This document shows, one piece after another, positions 8,610 through 63,500 of a DNA stretch of 64,000 nucleotides. Position 1 is the stretch's first letter. Every line of letters starts with the position of its first letter. The notes under the pieces were generated by a model. That model saw only the letters and a list, made by a program, of their open reading frames with translations, searched no databases and had not been told where the DNA came from. Position numbers and translations under genes: made by a program. Source of the DNA: Scolanthus callimorphus (lineage: Eukaryota; Cnidaria; Anthozoa; Actiniaria; Edwardsiidae); NCBI GenBank assembly GCA_033964015.1, contig CM066923.1:21811739-21875738 (forward strand), in the 5' to 3' direction.

Positions 8610-8815
8610 AGTAGCGAGTCAATCCGGCAATTCCGTAATATTAATGAAAAAAAAAAAAGATGGTGAGACTCAACAATAGTCAGCTTCTACAAGTTGTGAA
8701 ATCCATATAAGCAGCAAACTTTCGCTGCAGCCCTTTTTGACAACAGCATTCAAGACATTCAAATGAAGTACTGAAAGGAACTGAAATGCTAAGTAATTCT
8801 CATTCATGCCCACAG

Positions 8816-14900: not shown

Positions 14901-17900
14901 GGGTAGGGCCTAATACGGAGCCCTGTGGCACTCCAGACAGGACAGATGTACTGGAAGAATGAGTTCCATTCACAGATAAGGATTACTCTTTCTGGTACCA
15001 GTATTTGATTTTAAGTCAGTATAATTTTAAGGAGGCTGCCTACAATTTTGTCTGCTCTCCACCACCAAACTTTGTTTGCCTGCTGTTCAGGCTCAAAAAC
15101 CTGTACCGGTCTGAACTTTCACATGGTTACCCTGGAGGGTTTGAACTTTGTTGTAGTGTGCATTGTGTTGTGATCAGAGTTGCTATAGCAACGTTATAAC
15201 CACACCCTTGTTTATAATACGCAGCCATCAGACGCGTTGCGCGACCTAAACTTTTCAAATGACACCCCTCGTACTAATCCCTGAGTAGCTAACATTAATC
15301 ACAGCAAGTTTGGAGAGCATTCATTGGGCCGATTTTATGTTATTCGAACGGACTTTTTCAGGCTCCAAAATGTCAAAGTTATTTATGCCGCAAAGATTTC
15401 CTTGAAAAAGAATGGCTAATATCTGCGGAATTAAAAGATCCTTGCCGCCCGAATAATCTACAAACCCAAGGCAATGTACCAGCCAAGTTTCACTTCTTGG
15501 AATGCTTCCGATTTTGTTTGGCATGTGTTCAAGCAAACTGCAAAATTTGAGAAATTATATTATAAATCTTACGGTTGTTATAAAATTTACACTTTTCGCC
15601 TCTGACAAAAATCTCATATGATTTTTTTTTTTATACTTCCGTAAATTAATCTTGAATATATACCAAAAATAACCCTCTAAGTCTCGAGTTCATTGAAGTA
15701 TTTTAAGGCACCGAGAAAAAATGCTAAACTTCACTACTCTTTCGGTTTGCTCGAGCCGGTTTTTGCCATTGTACTTCGTTTTCACTTGTTGTAGCTTTCA
15801 CGTGGTTTTCCCTGTAATCAGTGAAGCGGACTACATTCCATCATGGGAATCAAACTAACTAACTACAACAACAAAAGATAATGCATATTCTATTACCTTT
15901 TAGGTACAGACCATTACATGGATTGTTGCAGTCGAAATGCCTCCAAAAATAACCCGTAAGCTTCTGAGCTGGAAAAATAGATTCCTGCAAGCCGGTTAAG
16001 CAGACGAAAATAGCAGCTAGGGCTCTCAAAAAATACCAGGCACTCCTTCCATTTTCTTTTTTTGTTTTGGCCGAATGAAGACAAAATAATTTGAGTTGCC
16101 TTGATTGCTAGTGTTGCTAAATGCCTTCTCTTTTCACGTGTTGGCTTGTGACTTACCTGAAAAGCCATTTAGTGACAATGAATATCGCGAGATAAGATCC
16201 AACAAATAGATAATAGAAAACATTTACAGCTTGGATTTGCAAGCGTTCAGGCTGGCCATATAAATGTTTAACTTGACAGATAACTGACTTTTCTCAGACA
16301 TCTCAAATGATAAAAACCACTATGTAAACAAGAAAAGACGCGAACAACAATTCAGTATTTTTCTAATCAACAGAATGCAAAGAGTTAGAAAGCTCAGCAT
16401 TATCAAGTTAACGTTCATAATAAATGTTGTTGGCTTGTTATTGCGTGACATTGTTTGCTACGCTTTGCGAGTCAGATGAATGTTGAGTCAATGGCCCATG
16501 AAAACTACAACACGCTGGAATGTAGTTCGCTTCACTGATTACAGGGAAAACCACGTGAAAGCTACAACAGGTGAAAACAAAGTACAATGACAAAAACCGG
16601 CTCGAGCAAACCGAAAGAGTGGTGAAGTTTAGCATTTTTTCTCGGTGCCTTAAAATGAACTCGAGACTTAGAGGGTTATTTTTGGTATATATTTAAGATT
16701 AATTTACGGAAGTATAAAAAAAAAATCATATGAGATTTTTGTCAGAGGCGAAAAGTGTAAATTTTATAACAAACGTAAGATTTATAATATAATTTCTCAA
16801 ATTTTGCAGTTTGCTTGAACACATGCCAAACAAAATCGGAAGCATTCCAAGAAGTGAAATTTGGCTGGTACATTGCCTTGCGTTTGTAGATTATTCGGGC
16901 GGCAAGGATCTTTTAATTCCGCAGATATTAGCCATTCTTTTTCAAGGAAATCTTTGCGGCATAAATAACTTTGACATTTTGGAGCCTGAAAAAGTCCGTT
17001 CGAATAACATAAAATCGGCCCAATGAATGCTCTCCAAACTTGCTGTGATTAATGTTAGCTACTCAGGGATTAGTGCGAGGGGTGTCATTTGAAAAGTTTA
17101 GGTCGCGCAACGCGTCCGATGGCTGCTAATTATAAACAAGGGTGTGGTTATAACGTTGCTATAGCAACTACGATCACAACAAAATACACACTACAATAAA
17201 GTTCAAACCCTCCAGGGTAACCATGTGAAAGTTCAGACTGGTACAGGTTTTTGAGCGTGAACAGCAGGCATACAAAGATTGGGCGTTGAGGGCAGAAATA
17301 ATTGTAGGTAGCCTCCTTAAGACAGGTGAATTTGCGGCGGCCATTTTGGAAAAGGGTCTATTACTTTGAATTTACTCATATAGGTTTTATTTGGAATTTG
17401 CGATTGGTTTCACTACAGTCATCTAATAGTTGTTACATTTTGTTCATTCCTCGTCTGATCATTCCACTTTTTCGACACGTTCCGTCCTGGTGAACCATTT
17501 AATAAAACATTTTATGGTAAATGTTTTCACTTTTTATGCTGCGTTCAGACCTGGAATGCCTGCGATAAGTGTGGTCCACGTTTTATAATGTTTTACTTTC
17601 TATGCTGCGTTCAGACCTGGAATGCCTGCGATAAGTGTGGACCACGTTTTATAATGTTTTACTTTCTATGCTGCGTTCAGACCTGGAATGCCTGCGCCAA
17701 GTGTGGCCCACGTTTTATAATGTTTACTTTCTATGCTGCGTTCAGACCTGGAATGCCTGCGCCAAGTGTGGACCACATTTCATAATGTTTTACTTTCTAG
17801 GCTGCGTTCAGACCTGGAATGCCTGCGCCAAGTGTGGCCCACATTTCATAATGTTTTACTTTCTATGCTGCGTTCAGACCTGGAATGCCTGCGCCAAGTG

Positions 17901-18342
17901 TGGCCCACGTTTTATAATGTTTTACTTTCTATGCTGCGTTCAGACCTGGAATGCCTGCGATAAGTGTGGACCACATTTCATAATGTTTTACTTTCTAGGC
18001 TGCGTTCAGACCTGGAATGCCTGCGCCAAGTGTGGCCCACATTTTATAATGTTTTACTTTCTAGGCTGCGTTCAGACCTGGAGTGCCTGCGCCAAGTGTG
18101 GACCACATACCGGGCTGTACAGGAACAACACAGTGAATGGAAACGAGGCAGGTGGCAGCGGATTAACACACGGCTCATGCGCAAAGCAACCGAGGCCCAG
18201 TTGGACTTGGTGCAGGCATTACCTGCTGACTCGATAGAATGGGATGTGTACCAAGGAATGATGGACTCTATACTAGATATTCAGGTAAACTGGTGTTAGG
18301 CAGGGCTGTGTTTCAAGGCCGTAGGCAGGAATGTTGGTTTCA

Positions 18343-40342: not shown

Positions 40343-43300
40343 AAACATGAGTACCTATATCATAGATATAAACACGAGAACCCCGTATGTAGTGTTGTGC
40401 CTATATCGGGATTTATAGACGCTGACGTCATCCATTGTTATTAATGTGCCAACCAGAAATCGATCGGCTCACAGAATAAAGGGCGGTTTTGAATGTACGG
40501 TTGGCAAATTAGCATTACAATGGCATTGTTGATAAACAGTAAATAGCGCCATAGGATTCATCCTTTGGTCACTGAACTTATTTATGAATAACTCATGAAT
40601 TTTGTAATGTTCAATCTAAAGCTGGTTTAAACTTACCAACCCCGGTACATTTGACATGCAAAAAATTGTATACCCCGGTAGAGTTATAACATCCAAATTT
40701 AAACCCCGTCACTATTTTTAGCCAGCCCTGTATGAACGGTGCCTAGCACAGGAAAAAAAGTGCGTCAGCTTAGAGACGATAATGCAATATTAATGATTGA
40801 ATTTGGTACATGTTTGCACAAGAAATCCTCCTTCTGATGTAAATTACAGAACACGCACGGCTGAAAAAGTTAATTCAAAGATTCTTTGTACTCAACGATG
40901 TTCGAGAATCGATTTTAGCTGCCGGAAAATAGCGTGTGAGACCCGCGAACATGCCAATTCTTTTTTTTTTTTGTTTATTATAATTATTCCTTTTTGCCTA
41001 CAAATCTACATTGAGGCACAGGCAGAAAATCGTAGACCAAAGGACCTTGCCGAGGTTTTTCTTGTTTTGAAATGAGACTTCGGAGAGAGAATTGCTATTG
41101 ACGGACGGAAAGAGCACCTCGAAAGTAGTAAGTTTAACAGGCAAAATTAGGCAAAATTGGAGTCTTGGTCGCTAAGCCCCGAACGAACTAACGTAAAATT
41201 CACAAACTTTGACGAGCCTTATTGTCGCAATTTATAAATATTTTTGCCCTGAAACTTTTACAGTTTTACAATTTTTGAGGTGCTCTTCCTAGCTGTGTTG
41301 ATAGGTTTTCTTTCCGTGGCCAAATTTGGAAATACGAAAAAAAAAAATTCTTACTTTATGGGAAATATCCTGTATATAAATCCTTACCCTCTGCCGGAGG
41401 AACGTTTCTGATTGGCTGATTTTTCTCGCCACTTTTGGCGCGCGTGCGTGAAACACAGGAAGCCCGCAACCTAAATATACTGCTGAGCTCCGAGCTTGGG
41501 ATACGGTCTTTCTCTCCATTTCTTTTCAGTGAGAAAATTAGAGGACGTAAATAATTGAAAAATCGTGACAAGGTGATGGGTTATTTTCTGGTTTCCATTA
41601 AAATATTTTTATTGGTTACAAAAGTCTCTTCTACTGGAAAATCGGCTGGATATATCTGAAAAATTGGTCTGACATTTGCTGATTTTGATCAGACAATGTC
41701 CGATGACCGGCCGTAATTTCCAGCCCTGCAATAGACCTCCTCGGCTTGCCCGTTTGTTGTCCCATTTTAGATCACGTGGCATTCCCATGAGTATTCTGTC
41801 TTTCTTCTGCTACGCACCGAAGGATATATGAATATGGAAACAACCCAAACAAAGAGTATTCAAATGAACGCCACGTAATTTGAAATAGGACAAGATTACG
41901 CCCATTGTAAAGAGGTCTATTGTGTCTTCCCAAATGAACAAAAATCTAAATAGCAAGCAACCATGATATATTATATTTGCCGAAAATTATATCAACCGAA
42001 AATTAATGTCCCGATTCTTTGTATTTTAGCCCGTACTTTGCGATGGTCCTGTCGATACATGGCTTGCCACGTTCCTCACAACCCTCCGTCAAACCATCAC
42101 AGACCAGCTAAACACCATAGTAGGGACCCCTCCCTCGCAACAAAATGGTGGACCCCCTGACCAGCCCCCAGGGACATCTAGTAGCTACACACGTATCGAG
42201 CAATCATTCACGCTCGACAATTGTACCGAGGTGGTCCTACTGGCAATGCAGATTGAACTGACTAAGAAGGTCGAAAAAGCTCTCCAGGAAGTCATAGGAG
42301 GGAACAGAGAGGCTGTTAAGGACGTGTTTGGGAAGCTCACTACTATTCTAGATTCCGTTGCCGTCATGCTGAAAGGCGCGCAGAAGGAGACGGCTTTGAA
42401 GGCGGCCAAAAGTGAAGAGGAGGGATCAGAGACGGGGCTGCAGAGGCACTAGAGGAGGTTGCCCTCAAACGAGCCCTTAGCCGCAACACGAGCGCTACCC
42501 ACCGCACTGTTAGCGCAGCGTCACGCGATATTGACGGTAGATCTGATATCTCGGTGTCCTCGGCCAAGCCCGAAAAACAAGGAACGGAACAAGGGACTGT
42601 GGAATTGATAGATATGGATTCTACCCGGAAGTCCTCGACGCTTGTTCTCTTCCCCCACCAGATTCAGAAGATCAGTAATTTGATTGCGTTACTCTCTCAG
42701 AAGCGTGACTTGTTGCGTGACTTAGTGGAGAGGATAGATAGTGGTGAGCAAATCAAGGCGGCTTCTGATTGGTTCGATTGGCGTGCCCATTCGCGTTACC
42801 GCTGGGATGATGAAGAGAAAAGCTGTAAAGTCGAAATCCTTGACTTGCCGTTTGATTACGGGTTTGAGTACCAGGGCACCTGCACAAGGCTCGCGCTCAG
42901 CCCTTTTACAGACAGGTGCATTATGGGTCTTGCCAAGGCCCTCAAGTCCAACATGGTTGGAGTCTGCAGTGGGACAGCGGTAAGCCGGGATAGTGTTTCA
43001 TACGATAGAAAAGAAAAAATCTTTATTTACAACTTTTAGATGAATCAGAGCCATCCTCGGAGACCCAGGGGATTTTTCCTCTAACGAATCAGAGCCACTA
43101 TAACCAAGGTCTGTTGTAGTTATGTTCCGTTTCAATAAGCCTAGTTGGAGTGTATATTTTGTGTCTTGTGCGCATGCGATTTTAGTCCGAATATCTTGAT
43201 TTCTTTTGTTTAACAAGAACAAAGAGAAGTTCAAAAACAAAAGATTCGGACTAAAATCGCATGCACACTGAACACGAAATTTAAACGACATGCTAAGTTG

Positions 43301-46300
43301 ACACCCATACCCAAATTTTACTATTTTATCAAGTCGCCAATTATAAAAGTGGTCGCCAATTTTTAAATCTTGTTGATGTTCTTCTAACACATTAAATCGC
43401 CATATGGCGACCGCAGATTAAAGTTCTTGAGTTTCAGAGTTCGAAAGACATATTGAAGCACATTCTATGATTGTCTTATTTCGACTCGAATTTTGTTCAT
43501 CTCACATCGTTTCTATTAATTCCAGGACTGCGATAAGACGGAGACAGTTAACGAGTTGTCGAAAATACTCGGCTACCCGTTGTACTCGTTCAACTCGTCG
43601 CGCGAGCTCAATCGCTCTATGCTAGTGGATATCTGTCGTGGTCTCGCGAGCTCCGGGTCCTGGGTTTGTTTCAATAACATCACCGCTATCACCCCGCCCG
43701 TGCTGTCCGTCTTCACGCAGTTGCTACAGGTATGTGAACACAAGCGAGGACTATCAGAGGAAATCGTCTTGATTTTACAAGATATGATTATCATAAGATA
43801 TTTTAGAAGTATTGGCAAAAAGACGAGCCCGAGCCCCTCTAAGTAGACCATCTCACCTCACGTTGGGCAAATGATTGTTTGTACTCAAGACAGAAATCAA
43901 TCACATTCATCCAAAAGATCCATTATATATCCAAGGGAACAATAGCGAAAGAAAAATGTGTTTTGCGCGCGCAGTTTTTATTTTATTGATTTTTTAATAT
44001 TTCCGATTGGCGATTTTTTTCGTTCATCTATGCGTTCTGCGTCCTATGGGGTGAACAATGGTTCCTTTGACGCATGAAGAAGACATAGAAAGTAGAACAT
44101 AGACCATCATGAAGAAGACAAAGAAAGAAGAACAATGACCTGTCTTTGTTCTATTTTCTATGTCTTCTTCATACGTCACAGGAGAGTCTGAAGAGTTTCT
44201 CCCCCAAGATTTATGGCGCATAGTTGTACGAAAAAAAAAACGCCAATCGAAAATATTCGAAAATCAATAAGATATTAACGGCGCTCGTAAAACACATTTG
44301 ATAAAATGTGGTTGATTTCTGCCTTGAGTGGTGTTTTAACCAAAGGTCTAGCGTGAGAATTTTTGCATTTTTGGGAAGCGAAAACTAGATTTAATCACCA
44401 TACAAGTATAAAACGCAGTTTACATTTGATATAAGTCAAGATTTTCTGAGGAGATGGAACATATTTTTTATGTTCAAGTGCAATGTTTTTTAGAATCTGT
44501 TTGCAACGCTTGGCGATACAACAAAAACCGTTTCGATTGACGAATTGTAGCAAAAGATCATACTCCAGTCATTGTAGTTTGACATAGTTTTGACATAGTT
44601 TTGAGAAATCTGTACTGAATGTTTATCATAGAGATCATAGAGAATTTTTGCTGTTATTCAGAAAAAGTTATTTTTCCATTACACATGCAAGTGGATTCCG
44701 TACATGCCTGGTCTTCCTTGACATTTCTTTTTCTTTTTTCCACTCTAGATTATCCTTGATGGTCTGCGAGCAAACAAGACATCCATCTTCATCCAGGAAG
44801 ATGAAGTACCTCTTGTCAGCAACGCTGCGTGTTTTGCTACACTCACAAACACAACCATGAGTGATAGTTCCCCTACACAATACCTCCCGAATGTTGGCTA
44901 CTTTTCCTCATTTAATAGCTCCATATCACAGCTACCTAAGAATCTCCTCAGCCTTTTCAGGCCCGTGGCGCTAATGGGACCAGATTGGGCCGTTATACTT
45001 GAGGTGTGGCTTCTCAGCGAAGGGTTCTCACAAGGGCCTTCCCTAGCATCCAAGATTGTGGCCCTAAGGGACCTCTGCATGAAATTAATCCCCTCTGCTT
45101 CTAAGCCCCTTCCTATTGGCATGTCCCGTTGTATTCACAAGTCTACCGGTTGGGGCCTGGTTAGTCTGAAGAGGATGGTGGAAAATGCTCGGAACCAGCT
45201 GTTTAAGTGCCAGGAAGAGTGTTTGGTGACCAGGAAGGCAGAAGGTACCAGTCCAAGAGGGGAGGAAGATAGTACTTTGAGAGGTGAAGGCGATGGCGCC
45301 CCACCCTCCCCTACTGATGCTGTCGCTGCTGTGAATGCACCTGAACCTGGTATGTTGTCACCTTTGGAGAACGTTCAGTGACTTAAATTAGGGTTATCCA
45401 TGTTGGATGTTGATATGTTGAACCTTACGCGAAGAAATCTCTAGATCAAATCTAAAAGCAAAGTTTCAGATTTGATTTACCAAATTCAATCGAGAAAATT
45501 GGTCTATATTCTCTCAATCAGCCGATGGAAATGGATGCTTTCTCAGACTTGGTATGTTGCAAGGCTGCCAAAATGGCGATGACACAGACTATTTGATAGA
45601 TGTGTTTCGGCGCCGTAAAAACGTTTTTGGTGTTGTCTGCGTTCTTCTCTGATAAGACATTTAGCCCCGTCCCAGGCTAAAAAGTTTTTTTTTCAGATTC
45701 ATGATGAATCCTGTGAATAATTCAACTTCGTCCTGTACGCTGATTAAAATATGTAGCATAATCCCGCGCAATTCTATCTTCAGCCAGCCATTCATTACAA
45801 AACACGAAAAATATAACCTACTTTTGAATGGCTTCTCTTCTGCATTCTTCACAAACACTACCACTCTAATTAATTTGACCAAACGTCAGAGTTTAAAGAG
45901 CCTGTTTCAGCCGCCATTTTGACAGCATAGCAACATACCAAGTCGGAGAAAGCATCCATTTCCATCGGCTGATTTTGGAGAATATAGAGCAATGTTCCCG
46001 ATTGAATTTGGTAAACGAATCTGAAACTTGTTTTTAGATGTTTATTAAGAGATTTTAACACAAAATTTGTATTCTAATATAGAACGAAAACAATAACAAA
46101 GAAGTGGCCGACACGGGCTCTTTAAGCATCGAATCAACGAATCGTAACACTAACTCTGTTACTTATATCCATCTCTAGAAGGATCCCAGACGAGCGAACA
46201 ACAGCAGGAGAACCTTCGCCTGGAGGAGACCGCTATAGTACTCTCCCTGCGTGATACCTTCATGCGGGACTAACTGGTGGAGATGCCGTCATGTTTGCCA

Positions 46301-49300
46301 CCTTGCTAGCAGACCTTTTTCCTCACGTCCAAGTCCCGATGATCTTTGACAGCTATGGTGTAGTGGACGGCAAGATGGCCTTGAATGATCCCGTGTCGAA
46401 TCTGGACGAGATTCCAGTCACCTCTCGCAGCCGACAGCAAACACCGATTGATGAAGAGAATGGTATGTCAATGCGTGATTTGAACCGTTTCTTTACCCGC
46501 CAGCCGGCGACCAAATTATACTAGTTGACAATTTACTGATTTAATCTTAGTCCCCATTTCTTTTTATTTGGCAGTCAACTGGCTTTTTCTCGTGATGAAA
46601 ACCCAGGTGAAAAATACTAGGCGAAACAGGGCAAGGATCTAATTGACCCAGCTGGTTGGAATAGCGGAACAGAAAAGCCGAAAATTCGAAACCCAAGAGA
46701 CGTTTTGCGCTTACAAAAAGAACGATGTTTCGTTGTTGAAAGTTGTCATATAGAGTAGATTTCGGAATCGCGTAGTCACGGCACGGTCGCGGCATGGTCG
46801 CGGCACGGTCGCGCCACGGTCGCGGCATGGTCGCGGCATGGTCGCGGCATGGTCGCGGCATGGTCGCGGCATGGTCGCGGCACGGTCGCGGCATGGTCGC
46901 GGCACGGTCGCGGCATGGTCGCGGCATGGTCGCGGCATGGTCGCGGCACGGTCGCGGCATGGTCGCGGCATGGTCGCGGCATGGTCGCGGCATGGTCGCG
47001 GCATGGTCGCGGCATGGTCGCGGCATGGTCGCGGCATGGTCGCGGCATGGTCGCGGCATGGTCGCGGCATGGTCGCGGCATGGTCGCGGCATGGTCGCGG
47101 CATGGTCGCGGCGCGGCACAGCTTTGTCGCGGCACTTTTCACAGGCATACGAAATCTGCTCTAGTTGATGTGCTCCTCGTTTTCATAGTGCGTGGTCAAC
47201 CGGTTGGAGCTTCACGGGATGGCCGAAAGCTGAGACCTTGTTAGTTGAACACTACAACACGTACATTTGCAGACTTGAAATGACACACTTTTATAAGCAC
47301 TTAGAAGTCCGTCTTGTGGTTTATGAAATTTTGACCAGAGGTGTCTCACTTTTTCACAGTGCGTGGTCAACCGGTTGGAGCATCACGACATGGCCGCAGT
47401 CGAAAATCTTGTTAGTTATAAATGAAATCTTGTTATTATGAATATAACTGGGGATTGACCATAGAAGTGCAATAATTTAAACATCTACACTGACATTAAG
47501 GCAAATGAGGACTGCATGCAAAATTTACAATCTACATCAGCATGATCGGTATTTACTGAACAAAATAAACTTTTCGGAACTCAAAGGAAATTGAGACTTA
47601 AGCAGTTTCTGAAAACCTATGGAAGCGTCAAGTAAAATTTGTCTTTTCTACTATGGAGTCCATAAATTCAAGGCTTTTGCGATGAGAGAGAGGAATCGAT
47701 TTTAAGGTTCCGATACAACAAATTATAAGCAAGTTTAGGACGACTCTAGTACGACGTTTGCCTCGCCCTACCAGCGACACCACCACCTCGCCCTACCATG
47801 CATTTCCGTCGATCTTTTTTGGTTCAACTGGTTCAGATTTACCTAAGTTCGCCGTTGCCGAAAGCCTTTTATTCCTATGGTTGATGTGTTAATTCTTCAA
47901 CTTATTCACAGTGCGTGGTCAGCCAATTGGAGCGTCACGGAAGACCCGCAGGCGAAAACCTTGTTAGTTATAAAATGATATTTGTAAAATCAACATTCAT
48001 TACCCTAGTCATTACACGACAATACGGAATAGTATATTTTGAATGAGACGAGTTTCTTCTCTTGGACGTGGTTCCTTGTTCTTCTGTGATCACGCGAAAA
48101 AAAATTTTTGAAGGAGAAATATTGACGCTAATATGCCGACTAGTTTCCGACTAGAATTCACATATAAGCCAGGAAATGTTTCTGACGAGAAACTCGTCTC
48201 AAACGAGAAACTCGTCTCTAGTGTGATTTCGGCTATTATGCATGGCTGTAAAGATTCAATAGTACACGATAAGTTTTGGGCGTAGCTTGAAAGTTCTCTC
48301 CAAGGCCTGTCTTTTGACAAGATCGTTAGCTGCTGTAGTAACAACAGCCTGTGATTTGTCGGAACTATTTCTTATGTGTCTCAATTGGTCTCAGCACGAT
48401 TCAATTGGTATCGGCGCGAAAATTCTGCGACAACGCAGTTGCCATCATAAAATCAGCCATCACCTCCTGGGCTCAAATTATTTACCTGAAGCTTTTTGGG
48501 GCCTCTCGAGGAAAAATTTTACTTCTCCATTTTAAAGGGAGGCTGTCACGATACGCGCATGCTCCAGGAACGATCACTGAGCAAAACTATTTAGACCATC
48601 CTATCAGAAAACTATTGAAGAATATGTAAAACGTAATATTTTGTCGGATAGGTCCAGAAATAGCAAGATTAAAATGGATTGTTTTCGTGGTTTTCAGCCT
48701 TCGCTGGCCATCGTTACGGGACGATACTTCTTTGTTTTGAGATGCGCAGTTGAACATTTGCGAGAGAAAAATGTATTATGCTTGTTCCATGATTTTTTCG
48801 TACAGATCAAAACAATCTGGAAAGCATATTCTGAATTTTGAAAATGGTCTTCTTTACACGTCACAGTAAGGCGACTATTTTTCTTCCATGATTCTTTGCG
48901 CATGAAACCAGTACAAACAAAGCGGCAATTTATCCTTAGCGGAATTCCTTAAAAAAAAAACGGCACTTATAAGACATTTTTCTTTCGCATGAAATGGTAT
49001 TGCATGAAATGGTTGTACTTCTAAATGAAGAAGTAAAATGTCTGCCTTGAGTGACACTTTCAGAATTTGATGCTACATTGAATAACATATTTTCGACGTG
49101 TCATTGTTTCCGCAGCGCTTGACAACATCACGGACGCGATCCGAGTGGCGACGGGAAAACTCGGCTTGCAGCCGGGGATATCGTTCCAGTCTCGGGTGTT
49201 TCAGCTGGCGGAGCTGGTGTCGGCACACAGAGTGGTCAGTATTGTTATAAGAATTGTTGCTCAAAAAAGCCTCATTCAGTTGCCTAAAAAAAGGTCGCCC

Positions 49301-52300
49301 TAACAGAGCTTCTATTCCGTCGAAGTTTATGCAATATTTTTCATTGAAATTCAGTACACAAAGATTTGAACTGATAATGTCTGATGATGTTGATGATGTT
49401 TATTGAAGTATTTTTGGATATAATTCACTCCCGCTGCACCACTTTTTCCCTAGTCGCGAAGGTTTCTTTGATAAACGATAAGTGTTTGTAAGTGGGCTTG
49501 TAACCCGGGGAAGGGTATAATAACAGAGAGTCCAAATCAGTCGGGCTTACTGACATTGTTTTTGTTCTCGAAAGTAGAGGTTTTTACAGCTAAAACCGTT
49601 GCATCGCGACTCCGATCAAACTATCTGAGCCAATGAAACTCTTGCCCTGCTTCGCCTACTGCAGTCAACTGGCTTCCCTCTGAACTAAGTCCAGACAACG
49701 TCGCGACGGAAAGCCAGGCGACTGCACTAGGCGAAACAAGGCAAGAATCTGATTGGCTCATAAGATTTGACTGACGGAAAACGAATGAAAACGCGGGTCG
49801 CGATGCAACTATTTTATCTGTAAAGGGGAATAACCTATAATATGCAAAGGTTGGGTAAAATGAAAGCCACTTTATAAAAAAAAACTTTTAACCGAACAAC
49901 AACTACTTTAGTTGAAAAGGTTCACTGCATTTCGCGTTTCTGTTTTCCATGAATTATTCTTGATTTAGCTTCCAATAACATAAATGACCGAGGCTGATTT
50001 TTTTCGCCCTCAGGTATGTGTGGTAGGGCCGAGCGGTTGTGGCAAAACCGAGTGCATCAAAACGCTTGCGGCCGCTCATCGAGAAATGGGACAACAGGTG
50101 AAGACAGATACTGTGTGTACCGGAGCCATGGACTCGGAAGAACTGTTGGGATACGTTGATCAAAACACCAGGTAAACGATCTTAATTTATCACGAAATTG
50201 CCAATTGAATGCGCCGATCAGCGCGTGATTTTCCTTCGACGATGTTCACAAGCCACTATTTATTGCGGGCACATTTGCAAGCGACAACAACAGCAACTTT
50301 ATTTCGCATTTCCAAAGTTACAAAATTGCGAGCGTGTAACATCCCGCGGCAAATATCTAGATTCATTTGAGTCCTTAATTAAGTTTTTATTTATTTCATT
50401 GTCCTGGAAAAGTCCTTGAGAAGTCTTTCATTGGTGCTTTTATGTATGAAGCCTGTGTGACGCCAGGTTCCAACGCAGGAAAATATATCTTTGGACCCAT
50501 CTAATCAACACTTGTGTTCACCTGACCTTGGCTTTCCAAAGTCTGTTCCTCAGCGGAGCTCACCGAGCCGGAGTCGCAAATCCGTAGCCCCGAAATTTTC
50601 TAATATGGCTTCATTTAATGAACTTCATTTCAATTTATTTTGACATTTATTTTACAGTAACAGTTGTACATTGAGCAACTAGGTTGAATAAGAAAAAAAA
50701 AAGATGGCGGAGCGCCTAAGGCTTGTGCGAGGAGGCGCCCTCACAATATAAGAAGATAATAGGAAACAAATAACAAATGCAAGACGAGACAGATAAACAT
50801 AGATTACTAGAATATATCAATTAAAGGGATAGAAATTTAAAACTTCAATTGGAACTGCCCCCATGGTGGTGATTTATATCATATACCCGTTTGAATGATT
50901 TCGCATACAGATTTCGTAAAATCTTCATTTCATTTTCGTTAGCATATTTATGTTGTCTTCGCCAATTTGATTTCCCAGAGAGTGGAAGGACGGTTTGCTT
51001 GCCGTACTGTTACGCCGCCAGTGCCGACAGCTGTGTCTTCAAGAAAGGGACAGAACTCAGCTGCCGGGAAAACGCTGATGAAGTGGCTACACCTTGATGG
51101 AATGGTAGGACAAACCTGACCTGGTTTGTTTCTTTTTTACAATGTTAGAGCAGCTGCAATCAGAATGGAGGCTGAATGTTCTCCCCTGCTTGGATATCGC
51201 TACCGAACCAGTTCAACCGGATTGCTCTTTTTTTACATTTGTACATTTTAAACAAGACTATGGGAGACTGTGTTGGACGGTTTAAACGGAGGTTTCCAAA
51301 ACAGCGAGGTTATCCTTTGTTAAATGTTTGGCCTAGAACATACGCCAAATTAACTTAGACAATGGAGATTCCTCATTTGAATGAGACTAGCGTATGTATG
51401 TCCTACGCCTTAGAAAGGGCCGTTTTCTTGGCACTTGTCTTTTGACAAAATGTCGTTTCTCTTTCTTTTTCTCATTCAGATCGATTCTTTGCAAATGGAG
51501 ATTTTCGGTTCTGTCATTCAGAACTCAGGTAAGTATTATGTTGACATCGTTACTCCACAAAATAGTTTCAGGAAAAATATACTTTGAAGAGAATGCAAAG
51601 TGGACGGGCGAACCCATGGCTTGTCAGGTCGGCGGTGTAACAATATACCGTGATCTTTCATTCAATGTTAGCGGATTTCATATGATTAATGGCGACTCAG
51701 TTTCATATAACTAAGTAATTTCGATGGCCTCGCTTTGTGATTGGTCGGGTAAAGAGTGTCCCTTGCTACATCAGCCACCAAAAACATTTTTCACCATAAC
51801 AGTTAGTTTTCTCCCAAAACGATTGGCTGATTTGCCGTCGGAATTTCATACCATTCTGCTCGCATCAGCTTGCGCGCGCGGCTCAAAAACACAGGGAAAC
51901 TGTTCGCATACGCGCGCTATTTGCAACGAGAGATGATTATAATTCATGGGGAGAAATACCGAATGGACATGCGCACTTGAGCGTGGCACTTCTAAAATAT
52001 GGACTCAGATTACCTTCAAATAATTTACTGTAAATGTATGGCAATGAAACTTAAATTCAAGATAACACTGGGCTAAATTCGAAATCGAAAGTTACTTTGC
52101 CTCCGATCGAAACAACATGTTGTTCATCTTTCTTTTCGTGGTAATATGGTGGGCTACAGTATAAAAATCGGTTCGGTTTTGTCAAATCTAGGTTACAAAC
52201 TCAAGAGCTCTGTTTACAAGAGGAAGTCTATGCCACGGCGCTAAAATACACAGAACTAACAGTCAAATTTCGTAACGTTATAAGCTCGTACAAACCTCAC

Positions 52301-54103
52301 TTTACCTCCAGATCAAAAAGAACAAGAATTCCTTCGTAAATCACACAGATTTCACGTCATGTAAATGATTTTTCAGCTCGGTTTTTAAGATCCACTTCCA
52401 TGTTAAACGAGGCTTCATTGTTTGGCCCTTGAAGTCCGCCTCGAAGCAAAAAGCTCGAAAAAATGCCGATTTCTTCGCTTCTTTCCGCTCTGAGCGGCCA
52501 GTTCTTCGACAGTGTACAACCAGGCGTTTCCTCTGCTAATAATATGTGTCCAAAAAGACTAGAAACGAGTACCAGAGTGCCTAGCGAACTTAATTTTAAA
52601 TATTAGCGCGAACTTGAAGCGAACCGGCGAAGGCAAAGTTCAGTATTGACTCTCGTTATTTATCAACGCATCCTCGATATTTTCCCAAAATTAACAAAAG
52701 CATGATATATTATTTTACTTTGCTTTCAAATTGTTTCTTCTTGGCATGTTATCAGCCGAAAAGGCAAAGTTTTAAGCAATTTATAACAACCTTCACTCTC
52801 TCTTCTGTCTCTCCCGGAAGTCAGGGTTTGTTTTTGCATACTAATTGACCCACCAATCGACAGCGACCAATGAGAGACGCAATAGGACAATCGACTTTAT
52901 TGACAGCATAATTAGGGTCATGTTTAAACTCCTCCCATTATCATTCGCTATTTCTCGCCATGTATATCATTTGGCATTTTGTCATGGTAAAAAAACAAAT
53001 TTCCAGAGGTTTTGAGTGGTGTGGACTCTTGTTTACAGCTTTTTACGCCATCTTCTTGGCCAAAATGTGTTGTGGATTCACTAGCCGCGTATCACTTGTA
53101 TTTGTGAAATTTTAATTATCAGGCACAATCGTGTTAGGGAACAACGAACGAATCAAAGTTCCAGAAGCTTTGTTAATACTTTGGGAGGTAAGTGGTATAT
53201 TCTTTTTAAAATTCGACTCTATATTTATCGTAAAGAAAAAGCTGGTTGGATCACAGGAGCTAACCTTTTTCCATTTTTGATCTGGCTTGAAAGAGATCAG
53301 AGAAATTAAACCTAGAAAAATAACGAATGAAGGTTCTTTATCAACCTAAATTTCTTTTCTACCCATATCCCTCCGAATGTTGCATTTAACTTCCCTCCAC
53401 TCTTGTCTTGATCAAAAACAACGTACTTCTAGGTTATCTATCTGCAAACAAAACAAAAAGAGGATTTCCTATTTGAAAAATATAGTACGTGGCTTTTCGT
53501 ATTCAAGCCCTGAAATTTGTTGACCCTCACACTTTTTTTTCTATTTCACTTTTAGCTGGAATCACTGGAGAATTTGTCCCCTGCCGTCCTGTCTTCAGTG
53601 GGCATGCTCACACTAAACAGTTCAGACGTCAGCTGGCCATTGCTAGTGGAGCGCTGGCTCACTCACCGTCCCGAGCGCGAAGTCGAGTTCTACGAGAGCT
53701 GTGTGATCGCTACATCGACCCGACATTGGATTATCTCGCGTCCAAAACTTCCGTCCCGCCACAGACGGGCGCGCCCGCGGGACAGAACAAGTCGACACAG
53801 CTACGTCACGTGGTCTCTGTCAACGAGATGGGGATGGTGAATACGTTACTGACCATTGTAGAGGTAAGGTAGTGGCCTATTAGTTTTGTAGTCCTCTAGA
53901 TATCATAATACAGCCAGGGGCGTACCCAGGATTTTTGAAGTGGGGGTTCCACTTTGCTATTCCCCTGTTCCTACCCATAAATTTCGGGAAGAACATTCTA
54001 GACCTGGCAATTCAAAGCTTGATTTTGAACTGATACGGTGTCGAAGCGATTTCACCTAAATATTACTCGAATTTTCCTAAGTTAGAAATTCCGTAACCCC
54101 TGG

Positions 54104-54144
<41 letters not shown>

Positions 54145-57100
54145 CCCCCCTGGGTACGCCCCTGACAGCGATTTTAGTCGGGCCAGAATTTCGAAGCGAA
54201 CTCGTCGAACTAGACTATCCAAACAAACTAAATATACAATGAACCAATTCAAATTTCAAGAGCATGTTCATCCCACCAGATGCAGCGCGCATAGTTGAAC
54301 GAAACAAACCGCCATCAGAGATATTCAAAAATCAATAAAATATTCACGGCGCGCGCCAAAAATATTTTTCTTTCGCTATTGTTCTATTGGATAATGGATC
54401 TATTTGATTATAACTTTGCATTCAATTTGGTCCATCATTTCTGTCAACCATTCAAATTTCAAACCAATTCATTCAACGTAGCTATGTATTTAGAAATCAC
54501 GTGTTCACCGCGTGATAGTGTTTTCCTTGACTTGTGATTGGCTGACGAGGAAACCATTCAGCAGCAAGTTGTATTTTCTCTCGCTAAGTGATGTTACTGC
54601 AGTCACATCTGAATTTCGCTCTTTTTCCAGGCTATCATAGCGAACTACCAAGACCTCATGCCGAGTGAGTTTGAGAACTACTTCTGTTACGCGGCCATGT
54701 GGGCGTTTGGCGGGACGCTGGAAGAGAAACACCGGCCCTACTTCAGTCAATGGTGGAGGGAGCAATGGGGAGCGTTCGTCTCTCTTCCTGGAGATGAAAT
54801 GGTAAAGCTTTTGTCAATGTATTTAAAGCTTAGTTTCCATATAGTCTTATCTGTCGTATCAGTCAACCGTGAAATTCCAGCTTCCATTGTTTCACGGCCG
54901 ACTGATGCGACAGATACGAAAGATAGACTATATGGAAACTAGGATTTAAAGAGCTTGATGGTACAGCACCATTATTTAGGAAATGTGACCGACTTCAATC
55001 CTATATTGATTTGACAAGGTTGGCTCAGCTGGGCCTCTCACCGCTGTGGTCCAGGTTCGACTCCCGGCCCGGGTAGAGGAAATTTTATTTCTGTTCGGGT
55101 CGTGGTCGAAACTGGTTCATATTGTGAGTTGAACTTTGTTCTACTGTGTTTCACGTCTTCGGATGAGACATAAAACCGACATTCCGTCTCGCCTTAGGTC
55201 ATGATACAGCTCTCGTAAGATCTGAGCCTATTGGATTGATACCCTCAGTGCAAAACAATAGAGGGTCATAATACAACGAGGAAACAATGGGATGCTTTGT
55301 TCTGCCTATCCAATCACACAAGATCTTACGAGTAGCTGCATCCTGCTCGCCTTCACTACCCTACCCAGTTCCAGGTCCACCCTTTGGCAGTGACCACCCT
55401 CAGTGTCTGTGCTTATGACCGCTTGGCTGCCAGTGGCGCCGTTGAGACCCAGCGTAATTCAGCTTTCGAGCTTCAAGTTTGAGAAGTCGGTCTCCAATAT
55501 TTGTGTTTCTATTAAATAGTGAATTAACCTGCAAGAACAAGTGCTTGCACTGTGGGTTACAGCCAAAATCGTTGTTTTTGCGTTGGAAATTTCCAAAACG
55601 TGGTTTCTTCTTGGGCGTTTCCGTTCTGCAAGTCAAAAACTTCTCATCCAATCAAATCCTTGTCCTGTTTTGCCTAGTGCAGTCAACTGGGTTTTCGTCG
55701 CGACAGAAAGCCATTCGACTGCACTAGGCGAAACATGGCAAGGACCTGATTGGCTTAAATGGTCAGACTGGCAGGACGTTTTGAAAATGCCAAGCTTGGA
55801 ACAACGTTTTTTTTTTTTTCTGTTTTTGTTTTTTGTTTTCAAGGTTTGGAATTACTTCGTGAACCCGGAGAACGCACGAGTTCCAGAGCTGGCGAGACTC
55901 GGTTCCACCGTATGCTCAGACGGCAGCGGAGGGAATACCAAACGAGGCTTATGTTCACACCGTACACAACGAGGTTAGAAAAATCGGCAAGTCCTTGGTG
56001 TCTTGACTCGTACCAGTACCGATAACAATAGCTACAGAAAGGAACAATAGCACAAGCCAACAAAAGAATTAAATAGGGGACTCGTGATGTGTCAAGACAC
56101 CAAGGAGAGAGAACGAAAAATCTATACTTCTTTACGTCTGAATTTTCCAAGAGATTGTTTCATCAATTACGTAATTGCTTACCAATAATCTATCAGTAGA
56201 ATGTTCGCGCTGACGTCATCCATTGTTATTAATGTGCCGACCAGAGATCGATGGTTCACAGAACAAAAGGCGCTATTCAATCTATGGTTGGCACATTAGC
56301 ATAAGAAATAACAATGTTGGTAAACGGTGAATAGCGCTATAGCCTTTCACAGTACCTCGTGCAGTCGAACGATTTCACGACAACACACTCAAATAAAAAA
56401 AGGTGTAAGAACTTCCAAAAAAGACAAACTGCTGAAAAAGGTGTGCGTTGCCTTGGAAACGTGCTTTATGCTTGACAGTGATTACATATTGGATGCAAAA
56501 AATCTCAAGGTGAATTCAGACACGTCTTCTCGCAAAGTGAGGTACAATCGAGAGCGAAGGGCGAAATTCAGATCGGATGCACTTATGATGAAATGCACAA
56601 TGGAGGATTCCAAACTTTGAAGTTATATCAAAATTGTTTGAAAATCGGCCCTTTTGACGATAAAACTTACCTACATTGCTTATAGGCTTGTTATATGAAT
56701 TGGGGATGATAGATACAATTAAGAGCTGTATTTATGAATTAATCAAATAACCGTGAACCCTTCAAGGTCGAACAAACTTCTCTTCGTCTTTTACACAGGC
56801 GTATCTCCCATCTTGTCGGGCTCCTGGCCGATGCAGGAAAACCGGTTTTACTGGTTGGCGAAGAAGGAGGCGGAAAGACCTCGATCTTACGTCACCGGTT
56901 AAAAACACAACATGGCGGCGACATAGGCGAGGTACTGAGTATGACCGTGTATTGTAACAAGTTCACTTCCGGTCGGAGTCTGTGGCGGGAGATGTCCAAC
57001 TGTCTGGTGGTGGAAACACGCGCATACGTACGTACCGAAAGGCAACAAGAGGCTCACGTGTCTGGTGGATGACTTGAACCTCAGCAAGGTATGGTCAGAG

Positions 57101-60100
57101 GTGCTTTAAGTGATCTTGATTGACTAAATATATGGCTATTTAAAGGAGCGGTTGTTACGATTTAGCAACACTTTTGGTGATGTAAGAACATCTAGGTTTG
57201 TTAATAGCCCTTTAACTACAAAGCGATAACAGAAGGCAAACACAAAACAGATCATAACATTGTCATTGTCAATGTTATGATCTGTTTTTTTGTTTGCCTT
57301 CTGTTATCGCTTTTTAGTTAAAGGGCTATTAAATAACCTAGACCGAAAAAAGGTTCTTCCATAGGTTTTTCCGAGGAGTGCAATAAAGGAAAGCCTCTTC
57401 CATGGGTTTTTCCGACGGGGTGCAATCCCATAAAGCCTCTTCCGTAGGTATTTCCGAGGGGGTAGAGCAAGAATTTCCGAGGGGGTTAGTAAAAAGGGGG
57501 GGGGGGGGTGTAGCTAAAAAATGGAGTGCCCTCTGTAGGTAGAAAACCAACCTTGTGGTGTTTTTTTAAGTTTTGTTTTTTAAGTTTTGTGCCATATTAA
57601 TTAGACAACGCAACAAACCAAATCATAATATTGACACCCATCGGACACAGGCTTTTTAAATGAGTCTCTTATCTAGGCGACAGAATTGGCACCCAGTCAT
57701 CCTGCGAGCTCGTCCGACAACATATCGATCACGGCGGCGTGTTCGTGTTCGACCCTGAGACACACAAATGGCGAGAAATTCGAGACGTGTCCTATCTGTC
57801 GTCCTACAACCCTTACACCCCACCCACTACCGCCAAGCTTAGCAACCGGTTGCTAAGGCACTTTGCTCTTTTCAGTGTCTCATTTCCAAGGTAAGGCTAG
57901 TTTTTATAAGTAAGAATAAAAAAATAACGAAATGCCTTTTGGTAAACGCAGATTTATTTTTGCGTGTTTTGCGAGCGAAATATAGTCATAGAACCTTAGG
58001 TTGAGAACATATCGTAACATAAGAAGGAATGACAATGTGTAAGTTTATAAATGCAAAAAAAACCGTGTCTTGTAGTAGTACATGTAACAATTATATTGCG
58101 AATTGGCATTTTCATGGCTTACCAGGCTGAAACAGTTTTCAAAATTTTACGTAAGAATGCCTTATATGCACGTTTCAGTTTCCTTTTCCTTATAGCACTT
58201 AATAAAAGTATAATAAAGGATTCAAATTCTGATCCCACTGGTTTAATTGCGTTTCGACAAAGAAGAAACGCAACCTACTCGCGTATGCCAAGTTTCTTTG
58301 AGTGAAATTCAAGCAATTAGCCTCACTTATGTACCCGGGCTTCTCACGGCTAGCCTTCGCGCAAGCAAACCAGTCAAAGTTTTGCCGGCTCTGTATGCCA
58401 AGATTCTTTGAGCGAAATTCATGCAACTAGCCTCGCTTTCGTATGCCAATGTTTCTCACGGCGAAACGAAACGCACTTACTAATCTAAGATTACTTCTAG
58501 TGTATAACATTTGTTGAAACAACCGCGACATAGTCCCTTTAATTTTTTTAGCCCCTTTAACTTTTTCTCATTTAAGCATTTCTGAGCTTCACTACATCTA
58601 CACCAACAACTCGAGAAGCACTTCCTTCTCAACGTGCACCAGCCTCAATCAAGTGCGCGGATAGCTCGTCCACGGGGACTGGGGAGAGCGCGAAGAGCAA
58701 GCGGGGACTGGGTACCAGGACCGTGCCATGAGGGAGCTGCTGAACTCCATCACGTTTGTGACCCTGGAGCTTCAGGACCATTACGGACCATGTACCTGGC
58801 AACGGCCCAGAGATGTCACTACATGTTCACCATGACCGATCTTACGATGATCTCAGGTAAGCTATGCTGTATCACGTTTGGTCGGTGAATTATTTTCGCG
58901 AGAAATAAGATCAGATTTCGTATGACTGTGAAAAGTGCCGCAACACGGCGCGCCGCACGGAACTGGCCTACTGGGTAGATAGCGATGCATGAAATCAAGT
59001 AGTCGCGGCGCGGCACAACTTACTCGCGGCACTTTTCACAGCCATACGAAATCCGCTCTAAAGTTCTACGAACGTGGAAATAAGATATCTGTCTCTCAAG
59101 GTATGGCTAGATCAAGGTTTACAACTTTTCGACGACTTTATTGTTAAGGATTTACTTGACAACCTGCGATCCGCTATCTGTAGGTAGAGATGATGCTTTG
59201 AAGGACTAAAAGTTTAGTTAACCGATCAGTGAGTGGTATATGTGTATTCGATTCTGCTCTTCAAATATTCGATTCCTCCCTGCGTTTCCACATTCTTGTT
59301 AATCCCCGTCGCTAACTACAAGTAGAAGACAAAGATTACAAAAACAAGCATGCAAATACAGAATTCACATAAAGATCTAACCAAAATCCTTTCGTTGCTA
59401 TAGAAACATATGCCTGACTCTGCGCCCTGGTTGTTCACACCGGAGCTGTTGTTGCTATGGAAACATGAAGTTGATTGGGTTTACAGTCGTCGGCTGATTG
59501 ACGCGGTCGATAAGGAGAGATTGCAACAGGCGTTCCTGGTGGCGGCCAAGAAGAGATTTACTAACGAGGAACAGGTTTGTCGAGATAACATTTGTACACT
59601 AGCGAGTCCCTGTGCAAGAAAGGCTTTTGAGTAGTGAGTTGAGACATTCTTACTGATGACGTAATATCTCTGCTTTAAGCATATGAAGCGAAATCAGTTT
59701 TACATTTTTCAATACATCTATTACTGCGATTTTCATAGTTCTGCGAACTCCCACTTGACATTTCCGAACGCAAAAATGCGTTTTGGCTTCCGTCAATGTA
59801 AAAGAAGGAAAAACCAACACAGAAACGCAAGATTTGCCCTGAAGAAGGACCGAAATAAAGGTACGAAAAGTTGGCAAATCTTGCGTTTCTGTGTTGGTTT
59901 TTCCTTCTTTTACATTGCATTACCTCAAACCAAGGCATCCCGAAGGGATCCAGAAAACATTGCTGTTTGCACACCTTTGATTTTAAGAAGAAGCTTCCGT
60001 CAATCAAACCTTTTAAGCCGTGTCCACGCGTGTTCCTGAGTTTGTATTAACAGTGAAAAATTGTATTCTGAGCCTAGCTAGCTCCATAAGATCAGGTAAT

Positions 60101-60522: not shown

Positions 60523-63500
60523 AGGGCAGAGGAAATTTTTTTGACTGCAAAATTTTCAGATCCCCCCAAGGCACAACATATTTTTTACGAATCCCCCCTC
60601 TTGGTCAAAGAAAAAAAAAAACATGGAAAAAACATTTTCAAGTATATATTTATATCAATTTTACATTTTTCAAAAAATAAAGAACAAGGCTCAATGATAA
60701 AAAAATACAAAGCGTAAAAAAATGCAAATAAAAATCCTAGGTGCTTTACTTTTTTGTGTCGGTATAAATGGACTTTCTACCAAGTGATCTGGTGCGCTCC
60801 TCGAATTGGAGCCTACTACACATAGGCTGAGTATCACTTTATTTGTATTTGATTGTTTGGTATGTTTTCCGTTGTGCGCGCAAAGCGCGCCGCAATTTGA
60901 CAATGAAGCTACAAGACTATTAATCAAAAGTCCAAAGGCGTTTTTGTCTGGCAGACGAAAGCCACCGAAGAGGACCTCGAGGAATTGTAGTAACAAGAAG
61001 GCCTTTTACGACTTTTTAAGTTTAAAATAATTAATAATAATTCTAATAATATAATAATTAATATAATTCTTTATGCGCGCGAAGCACGCAGTTTTTTTTC
61101 AACATATCAGTTGAAAGAGGGTGAATACACGAGAATAGTAGTGCAAGTGATATTTCTTCAGGAAGGAGGTTCAAACTCGGTGTTCAACAATTGAGCCTTC
61201 CTTCATTTACTAAAACTGCACAACCTTATCTTAAATATATATAATACNNNNNNNNNNNNNNNNNNNNNNNNNNNNNNNNNNNNNNNNNNNNNNNNNNNNN
61301 NNNNNNNNNNNNNNNNNNNNNNNNNNNNNNNNNNNNNNNNNNNNNNNTTGCTTTAATAGTGCAACCTATCATAGGATATATAATTTGCACAGCGCATTAT
61401 TATGTAATTGCGATTTACATACTTTTTACTGCTGCATCAAAGGCCTCCGTATTATTGCGAAGAGCAATGGCATTAGACTCAAGACTGTTCCACAGTCGTA
61501 TTGCACGTGGAAAAAAAACTAAATTTAAAAATGTTCGGCATAAGGAACATTATGATCTTCTTGGGTTTGTCTAGACCTCTTATGAGGTTTTCAAAACTCA
61601 GCTAGCGTCAGATTAGTAGACACAAGGTTGCAGCCAAATGAGTATGACAGAGTTTTCCAGTGCTTCGCGGATTTCTCAGTTGGACTGTAGAGTTGAATTA
61701 GTGTTTCGTTTTCTTGTCAGGGTGTAATGGAGGTCATTTGTCGCCTGGTGCGCATCGTGCAGTGTCCACACGAATGTGGTCATGCTATGATAGTATCCGA
61801 AGGCTCCCTGGACTGGCTACTAAGCTGGCTCAGCTTGCCGCACATCTATGTGATTACGCCGTGTTCCGTATCAACCCCTCCTCAGTGTCAAATGCAAATA
61901 AATACACCTTGGAGAGCTTCAAGGCGGATCTCGTACAAGCGTACACCAGAGCAGGGGTTAAGGTATGTAAGGCCCAGCGCAAACGAACTTCTTCTGTCGA
62001 ACCTTTTCTTTTTCAAAGGATGCCGCTTTATTAGACTTTCTAATAGAAAACTTTCTATTGTTTGGATTGGAACGGCGCGACTGTGGCACGACGTTTGCCG
62101 TAGGCCTTAGGGCCTGTTCACATGAGGCGATATATCTCCGGGGGTAGGGATTTCTCGGGGGGTATGGACGACTGGTTGTGTTTCACATGAGAACATTTGC
62201 ACCGAGACATCTCCGTGTTGTGGCTAGAAAGCATGCGCCACGCACGTATTTTTCTTACCCAAAATCAGTCACTACAACTCTGATTAAAATCCGGTGAATT
62301 TCTCAGTAAGACGTGCAGGCGAACGATTCCATGACAACACACGCTCCCCCAAGCAACAAAAGCATGCGAAAACTTCCAAGCCAGACAACCAGGCGCTACG
62401 ACTGTTGAAAAAGGCATATTGTATTGTCTTGGAAACGTTGTTAAAAAATATCGTTTTTTATGTGGCTGTGATTTACATAATGGATAAGAAAATCTCGTAG
62501 TAAATCCAGACGGCTCCTTTCGCAAAGTTGATGGAATTGATCGTAGTTAAGGGAGGCTGTCGCGATACGCGCATGCTCCAGGAACGATCACTGAGCAAAA
62601 CTATTGGGCCATCGGAACAGAAAACTATTGAAGAATATGTAAAGCGTAAACATTTGGTCGGATGGATCGAGGAATAGCGAGATTAAAACGGATTGTTTTC
62701 GTGGTTTTCAGCCTTCGCTGGCCGTCGTTACGGGACGATACTTCTTTGTTTTGAGATGCGCAAAACAGCTGCGCAGTTGTTTGCCTACTATTGTGCACAG
62801 GTTTCTTGTAGTTTCCAGGTTTCCATGTTCTGTTATTTCCACAGGGTGAACACCTGTTGCTATTGCTTCCCGAGTCGGACATGATCGAGGAGGACTTCCT
62901 AGTGTACGTCAGCGAGTTTCTCGTCTCCTGTTCAATCTCCCATCTGTTCAGCGAGGAAGAACAGACGTCCGTTATCAACGCCGTGCGTACCGAGGTCACA
63001 CAAGCAGGGCTCACATACACGCGGGATGTGGCATGGGACTTCTTCCTTAAGTAAGTGTGGCGATCAAGCGCGGAATACTGATTTAGGGTTCTGAACTAAG
63101 CCTGGTGCACACTTACGACCTTCTCAAAGCTCTAAAGCCTGGTGCACACTTGCGACATAACGTCATAAAAAATATCACGCAACAAAATTTAGTGGTTTCA
63201 AAGTCCACAACAAAAACACATAATATTGCTTTGGTGAAGTAATCTAATGATGATCCATGGCAAATACAGCCGATTGCGTTTGAGCGTTTTACCCTAACAG
63301 TTCGCACATTATGTTTGAACGTTTAAAAGTTGTGTTTCTAGGATGAAACGAGACGTTTCTATGGCGAACCAAAGAGTTCTGTCCTCTCTGATTGGTCAGT
63401 GAAAAATACACATGGCGGTTGCCCTTGGAAACGTCTGACTTTTTGTCTCACAACGCAACTTTCAAACGTTCAAACGTAACGTGCGAACTGTTTGGGTAAA

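Follow-up and report, generated by a model that had tools for sequence, protein, structure and literature searches.

The host gene, a divergent dynein, and its second copy on contig C297

The analysed stretch of the Scolanthus callimorphus genome (termed the window, 64 kb in length and located on contig C13) carries on its plus strand much of the gene for a divergent, coral-type dynein heavy chain. The conceptual spliced protein of 815 residues (42030 to 51104) is 53% identical over 838 columns to a protein from Orbicella faveolata (P0001) with a length of 5226 residues, and it displays the organization of a dynein heavy chain, with an AAA1 followed by an AAA2 module, which can be aligned with dyneins of known structure. 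In Pfam, AAA_6 scores above its cut-off and AAA_5 just below its own, and 84 sequences of the PDB are matched at E ≤0.001, the best of which is DNAH9 (2.7e-52). Besides P0001, a search for orthologs identified proteins from Pocillopora, Acanthaster, Babylonia, Lingula and Lineus and one that is 80% identical to P0001 (P0002-P0007), while the remaining 32 of 39 rows are general dyneins with at most 84 bits. The sources name these relatives 'dynein beta chain' or uncharacterized, and the name DNHD1 is absent among the named rows of this search (39 rows). The vertebrate counterpart of the host gene may be DNHD1. DNHD1 is described as an orphan or 'ghost' dynein heavy chain and resembles the host gene as a divergent animal protein outside the standard classes (PMC8754002).

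The region of interest is located at the transition between AAA1 and AAA2, where spliced alignment to P0001 defines the following features:

46179..46462, plus strand: upstream constitutive exon, encoding the C-terminal part of AAA1 and most of the AAA1-AAA2 loop and ending in phase 1
46463..49115, plus strand: host intron of 2653 nt with GT..AG boundaries
49116..49234, plus strand: downstream constitutive exon, encoding the start of AAA2 and entered in phase 1

Both flanking exons and their phase-1 junction had been proposed in a preliminary description of the locus and are upheld by the alignment with orthologs. In our mapping, the exon that ends at 46462 is number 18 and the one that starts at 49116 is number 19, in line with the earlier count, if numbering begins at the first matched exon at 8813 and tblastn rows with E ≥1 are left out. 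The junction falls into a loop of about 40 residues that directly precedes the first AAA2 helix. At this site, the loop comprises 41 to 96 residues in this dynein family and about 6 residues in a solved outer-arm dynein (between 2150 and 2157 of u124594). The AAA1 module itself (42943-43729) looks degenerate despite the strong constraint on the gene. The position that we take to be the catalytic Glu of Walker B is replaced in all seven orthologs (Asn in five, Lys in one and Asp in one) and by Asn in the window, and the standard Walker A sequence GxxxxGKT found in P0001 and P0002 is altered in the other five orthologs and in the window.

A second, partial copy of the gene resides on the 25-kb contig C297. 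The first 20 kb of this contig run collinear to the window from about 33 to 57 kb, and the introns differ much. Since the exon at 62842-63051 is found at a single place in the genome, C297 would be either an allelic contig or a duplicate of part of the gene. Constitutive exons of the two copies differ by a dS of 0.105 and a dN of 0.012, equivalent to a dN/dS of 0.12, and the host gene is thus under strong constraint. This comparison covers 884 codons from pieces of 42030-51044 and from 53556-53863, with slip-bearing pieces cut or left out and 53118-53187 aligned and uncounted. Between 42030 and 61962, several strongly conserved constitutive exons contain single-base frame slips, one of them near 46265 in the exon 46179..46462, where the length of C297 differs by one base. 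At all four slips that were compared, C297 has one additional base, in agreement with an open frame in that copy. The slips are probably errors of the assembly, or else damage of very recent date. We do not favour a pseudogene as their explanation, as neither copy has an in-frame stop in the 884 codons, at the dN/dS quoted above.

Three 51-nt segments in the intron between AAA1 and AAA2

The host intron contains three related segments, starting at 47189, 47360 and 47912, that are each 51 nt long, open, and in phase 1 on both sides. Each is located directly 3' of an AG and directly 5' of the sequence GTTAGT. We refer to them as cassettes:

47189..47239, plus strand: cassette 1, 51 nt, VRGQPVGASRDGRKLRP; 54 nt and in frame in C297
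47360..47410, plus strand: cassette 2, 51 nt, VRGQPVGASRHGRSRKS; one substitution in C297, His/Gln
47912..47962, plus strand: cassette 3, 51 nt, VRGQPIGASRKTRRRKP; five substitutions in C297, of which four are synonymous and one is Ile/Val

The coordinates, lengths, AG and GTTAGT boundaries, phase and three peptides of the preliminary description were reproduced without change, as was its observation that five of the first ten codons differ, four synonymously and one by a Val/Ile exchange. As a correction to the reported drop outside the exon, similarity continues past the exon edge for about 10 nt on both sides, and between copies 2 and 3 it extends further into the flanks. The spacers measure 120 nt between cassettes 1 and 2 and 501 nt between cassettes 2 and 3. 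By manual count, the peptides carry a net charge of about +4, +5 and +7, respectively, and any cassette-to-cassette junction reads TTG (Leu). The cassettes have a G+C content of 55-59%, compared to 52% in exons and 40% in introns. In the proposed frame, their codons are used unlike those of exons (0.115, -0.233 and 0.098 per codon vs an exon mean of 0.271), and those of the other frames that are open have higher scores. When read on unspliced, all three segments end in TGT TAG, with the in-frame stop located inside the donor, a feature absent from the preliminary description.

The corresponding splice sites, scored with generic weights, are:

47159..47188, plus strand: 3' splice region 1, with a branch-like TTGAT (A 21 nt upstream), a T-rich tract and AG; score 8.5
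47330..47359, plus strand: 3' splice region 2, TTGAC, A 26 nt upstream; score 9.5
47881..47911, plus strand: 3' splice region 3, TTGAT, A 28 nt upstream; score 4.9
47240..47247, plus strand: donor 1, GTTAGTTG, weak, score 2.9, with an in-frame TAG; 1.0 in C297, where the preceding exon bases differ
47411..47418, plus strand: donor 2, GTTAGTTA, score 2.9, identical in C297
47963..47970, plus strand: donor 3, GTTAGTTA, score 2.9, identical in C297

Acceptors of the gene have a mean score of 8.1 (n=26), and the three cassette acceptors rank 7, 1 and 12 among the 127 AG of the intron. Their branch-like TTGAY sites are accompanied by other weak candidates. Donors of the gene have a mean score of 7.4 (n=26), with only one of 26 scoring as low as the 2.9 of the cassettes; two of the 26 junctions are unreliable due to nearby slips (introns 55991-56798 and 57101-57696), and one of these contains that lone weak donor. 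None of the 26 gene donors has a T at -1 or at +3. A score of at least 2.9 is reached by 13.9% of 2225 intronic GT, and in the host intron the cassette donors rank 10 to 12 among 156. Weak donors are usual for optional exons. Those of the cassettes fit conditional use, yet they would equally be expected of an accident.

No VRGQP-like insert is found at the exon 18/19 junction in any of the seven orthologs, which are cluster representatives only; the closest fragment (P0040) breaks off where the exon ends and is uninformative about an insert.

Several other features of the window were recorded. An 11-nt minisatellite of about 31 units (46775-47112) ends 76 nt before cassette 1, and the matching stretch between aligned blocks spans 172 nt in C297 vs 429 nt in the window. 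By eye, its unit resembles the middle of a cassette; an origin from a fourth cassette was dropped as explanation, given that the likeness is partial and that the profile of the three segments has no hit there. A 66-nt tandem array of about nine units (17520-18108) copies the 3' splice region and the start of the exon at 18065, and of the eight copies listed 5' of the true exon, six have AT in place of the acceptor AG and two retain the AG. On the minus strand, an open reading frame of 326 aa (14002-14982) resembles by eye the end of a LINE reverse transcriptase, and a single-exon open reading frame of 532 aa with many hydrophobic stretches is located at 2896-4494.

Distribution of the segments in the genome

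We searched the genome (597 Mb in 302 contigs) for further copies. With up to one mismatch, a 22-nt core of the cassettes is found at six places, three in the window and three on C297, and no other copies appear in the 597 Mb at up to two mismatches. Four further places carry it with three mismatches, compared to seven in all for a reversed control pattern. Within the 64-kb window, the core has three matches at up to three mismatches and none in 100 shuffles, and a profile of the three segments finds no fourth copy there (nhmmer, next hit with E 4.8). An 851-nt query yielded 38 matches genome-wide, namely itself, one place on C297 that includes the cassettes, and 36 elsewhere. None of the latter falls on a cassette, as all are confined to a part of the second spacer:

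47546..47867, no strand assigned: fragments of repeats located between cassettes 2 and 3, accounting for 36 of the 38 matches

These repeats may be the reason for the length of this spacer (501 vs 120 nt). The core pattern had no matches in the collections viral_contigs and genome_contigs, a result of little weight as neither holds animal genomes. Rfam contains no family that matches the segments, either at E 2 or even at E 10, and a search for tRNAs found none in them. Covariance models thus rule out a tRNA or other structured RNA, the likeness to a tRNA D-arm being by eye only.

The arrangement of frame and splice sites was compared to two controls. In shuffled alignment columns, an open phase-1 cassette with a length divisible by three and equally good sites in all copies was obtained once in 30,000 trials, a number that is optimistic because the shuffle also breaks the T-run. 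The window contains 14 other local direct-repeat families, the array-like D1-D7 and the two-copy D9-D15; in the latter seven, analysed on both strands, a comparable cassette was found in 0 of 14 cases. Among the eight families and both strands, only the cassette family on the plus strand is open with such sites in all copies, and it passes in two phases, one of which is that of the gene. The organization of the cassettes is thus more than chance.

Preservation in the second copy and evidence for selection

All three cassettes are kept in C297 with lengths of 54, 51 and 51 nt, the first containing a single in-frame 3-nt difference, and all are open and in frame with AG and GTTAGT intact in each case. 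The acceptor regions (-30..-1) have no changes at 90 positions, and the sequence remains unchanged over -40..-1 at acceptor 1 and over -31..-1 at acceptor 3. Similarly, the donors show no changes at 24 positions of +1..+8 and three at 36 positions of +9..+20. Since 32% of plain 30-nt intron windows are unchanged between the copies, finding three unchanged acceptors by chance would have a probability of about 0.03.

The exons themselves carry 11 changes in 153 positions compared to 21 in 547 of plain intron. Six of the 11 substitutions are synonymous vs 3.5 expected (P 0.096), distributed as two of five in cassette 1, none of one in cassette 2 and four of five in cassette 3, and the dN of 0.044 is about the intron rate. 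As the exons outpace the surrounding intron with a dN close to the intron rate, constraint on the protein, if any, would be loose. Comparison of the three copies in the window reveals 16 amino-acid differences vs 21.2 expected over the whole exon (P 0.058) and two vs 6.9 in codons 1-10 (P 0.027), with no signal in codons 11-17 (P 0.61). If all six frames are compared, the frame of the gene shows the fewest amino-acid changes (P 0.064, the others ranging from 0.11 to 0.46), and a test on the six sequences of both gene copies gives P 0.065 when the exon is taken as a whole, with P 0.016 in codons 1-10 and P 0.66 in codons 11-17. These three tests share data and are not independent, and codons 1-10 are a choice of the preliminary description that was made after the data had been seen. 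Together, the results are no more than suggestive of a codon-phase bias toward synonymous change. The selection on protein that had been proposed from the same pattern finds weak support or none, with P values between 0.016 and 0.10 and nonsynonymous change close to the rate of the nearby intron.

Alternative explanations

In light of these properties, we regard the segments as probable cassette exons that are lineage-specific, duplicated and optional, and that would add a charge of about +4, +5 or +7 to the AAA1-AAA2 loop. This reading from genomic sequence retains the in-frame optional exons of the preliminary description, for which frame, site, acceptor scores, G+C content, the constraint on the host gene and retention in the second copy speak, and against which stand the weak donors with their in-frame TAG, the codon usage unlike that of exons, the rate of change of the segments and the lack of the insert in the seven orthologs. 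As in tandemly duplicated alternative exons, the copies are of equal length or differ by a whole codon (54/51/51 in C297) and share a matching frame with AG and GT in six of six cases, albeit with weak donors, and homologous sequence is restricted to this locus and its second copy. Exclusive use of the segments, one of the modes considered previously, has no basis in spacing or in docking pairing. In a simple exact-complement test, no docking/selector pairing was found beyond that of shuffled flanks, and steric exclusion is unlikely at spacers of 120 and 501 nt. Moreover, seven of seven orthologs pass the junction without any cassette, so none is always needed, unlike in mutually exclusive exons.

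The main competing explanation, which we consider somewhat unlikely, assumes that a piece of intron of about 75-80 nt was duplicated locally long ago and was never, or is no longer, spliced, with acceptor, frame and donor as accidents or fossils of earlier exons. Such duplications do occur in the window, which contains seven further two-copy families of 45-82 nt (D9-D15), five of them with copies less than 600 nt apart, and the poor donors, the codon usage, a nonsynonymous change at about the intron rate and the absence of the insert from orthologs would all be accounted for. It is at odds with the rarity of a comparable cassette in both controls (0/14 strand-families and 1/30,000 shuffles), with acceptor regions and donor positions +1..+8 that are unchanged between the gene copies (0/114), and with a codon-phase bias in the frame of the gene itself.

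The TGT TAG that ends all three segments when they are read on unspliced instead raises the idea of alternative terminal coding exons, which would cut the protein after AAA1 with a Pro-Cys or Ser-Cys tail. The stop is common to all segments and remains in frame despite the 3-nt difference in C297, and a TATAAA, which we take to be a minor variant of the poly(A) signal, starts 7 nt past segments 2 and 3 (47417 and 47969). No such signal is found at segment 1, the lone AATAAA and ATTAAA of the intron are located at 47564 and 48668, and the product would stop after AAA1 without most of the motor ring, which makes this explanation improbable. Least credible, to a degree that we hardly consider it, is a dispersed repeat such as a tRNA-derived SINE inserted three times. 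The first half of the segments does resemble a tRNA D-arm by eye. The searches described above, with no additional core at up to two mismatches and a background level at three, and with neither an Rfam family nor a tRNA, are incompatible with the many copies of such an element, as the segments are found only in the window and C297. The claim that they are not a scattered repeat has thus withstood the search for copies outside the gene, which recovered only the second gene copy.

Proposed use of the cassettes and relation to known systems

If the segments are optional exons, the default transcript would join 46462 to 49116 and encode a loop as in the orthologs. With donors this weak (CTT followed by GTTAGT), inclusion would be conditional, and cassettes would be added one or more at a time under conditions that help these donors, each introducing a basic 17-residue piece into the loop just before AAA2. 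Because each consists of 17 codons in phase 1 with junctions reading TTG, any of the eight combinations would keep the frame. We tentatively propose, with more doubt than for the exons themselves, that the set might act as a lineage-specific charge rheostat, with eight isoforms whose AAA1-AAA2 loop carries about 0 to +16 extra charges. In an orphan dynein with degenerate AAA1, splicing would thereby tune a non-canonical motor or structural dynein.

Related arrangements have been described. The cytoplasmic dynein heavy chain SmDHC1 of Schistosoma mansoni has a mutually exclusive exon (PMC3228551), which leaves the earlier remark about the lack of such sets in this family without support. As at the present locus, the gene encodes a dynein heavy chain and the duplicated exon has copies that are homologous, of equal length and bounded by split codons at both ends, but in SmDHC1 one copy takes the place of its partner within the protein body, whereas here three copies would be extra to a complete protein of a different dynein gene, with exclusion unsupported (PMC3228551). 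In vertebrates, the exons 5-7 of dynactin1 (p150) are three small optional exons whose combinations increase the count of Arg and Lys in steps, from none up to nine, with the charge of the basic exons influencing sliding along microtubules (PMC3583065). The cassettes, if used, would resemble them as three small optional basic exons in a gene of the dynein pathway; the dynactin1 exons belong to a different protein, are not described as copies of each other in the excerpted text, and their inclusion is documented by EST and cDNA, whereas that of the cassettes is predicted from genome sequence (PMC3583065). In our best reading of the locus, the cassettes would work in a way that is the same in kind. 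Duplicated alternative exons, including one case in a dynein heavy chain, are thus already known, and the present set would be a new candidate, for which we recognised no description among the papers listed by literature searches, as judged from titles and the starts of abstracts.

If used, the cassettes would form a group of exons located within the motor ring of a dynein heavy chain, with inserts that change its charge in steps, and the cell types making each isoform would offer a handle on the role of this orphan dynein. The locus would also provide a case for the origin of short optional exons with weak donors by duplication.
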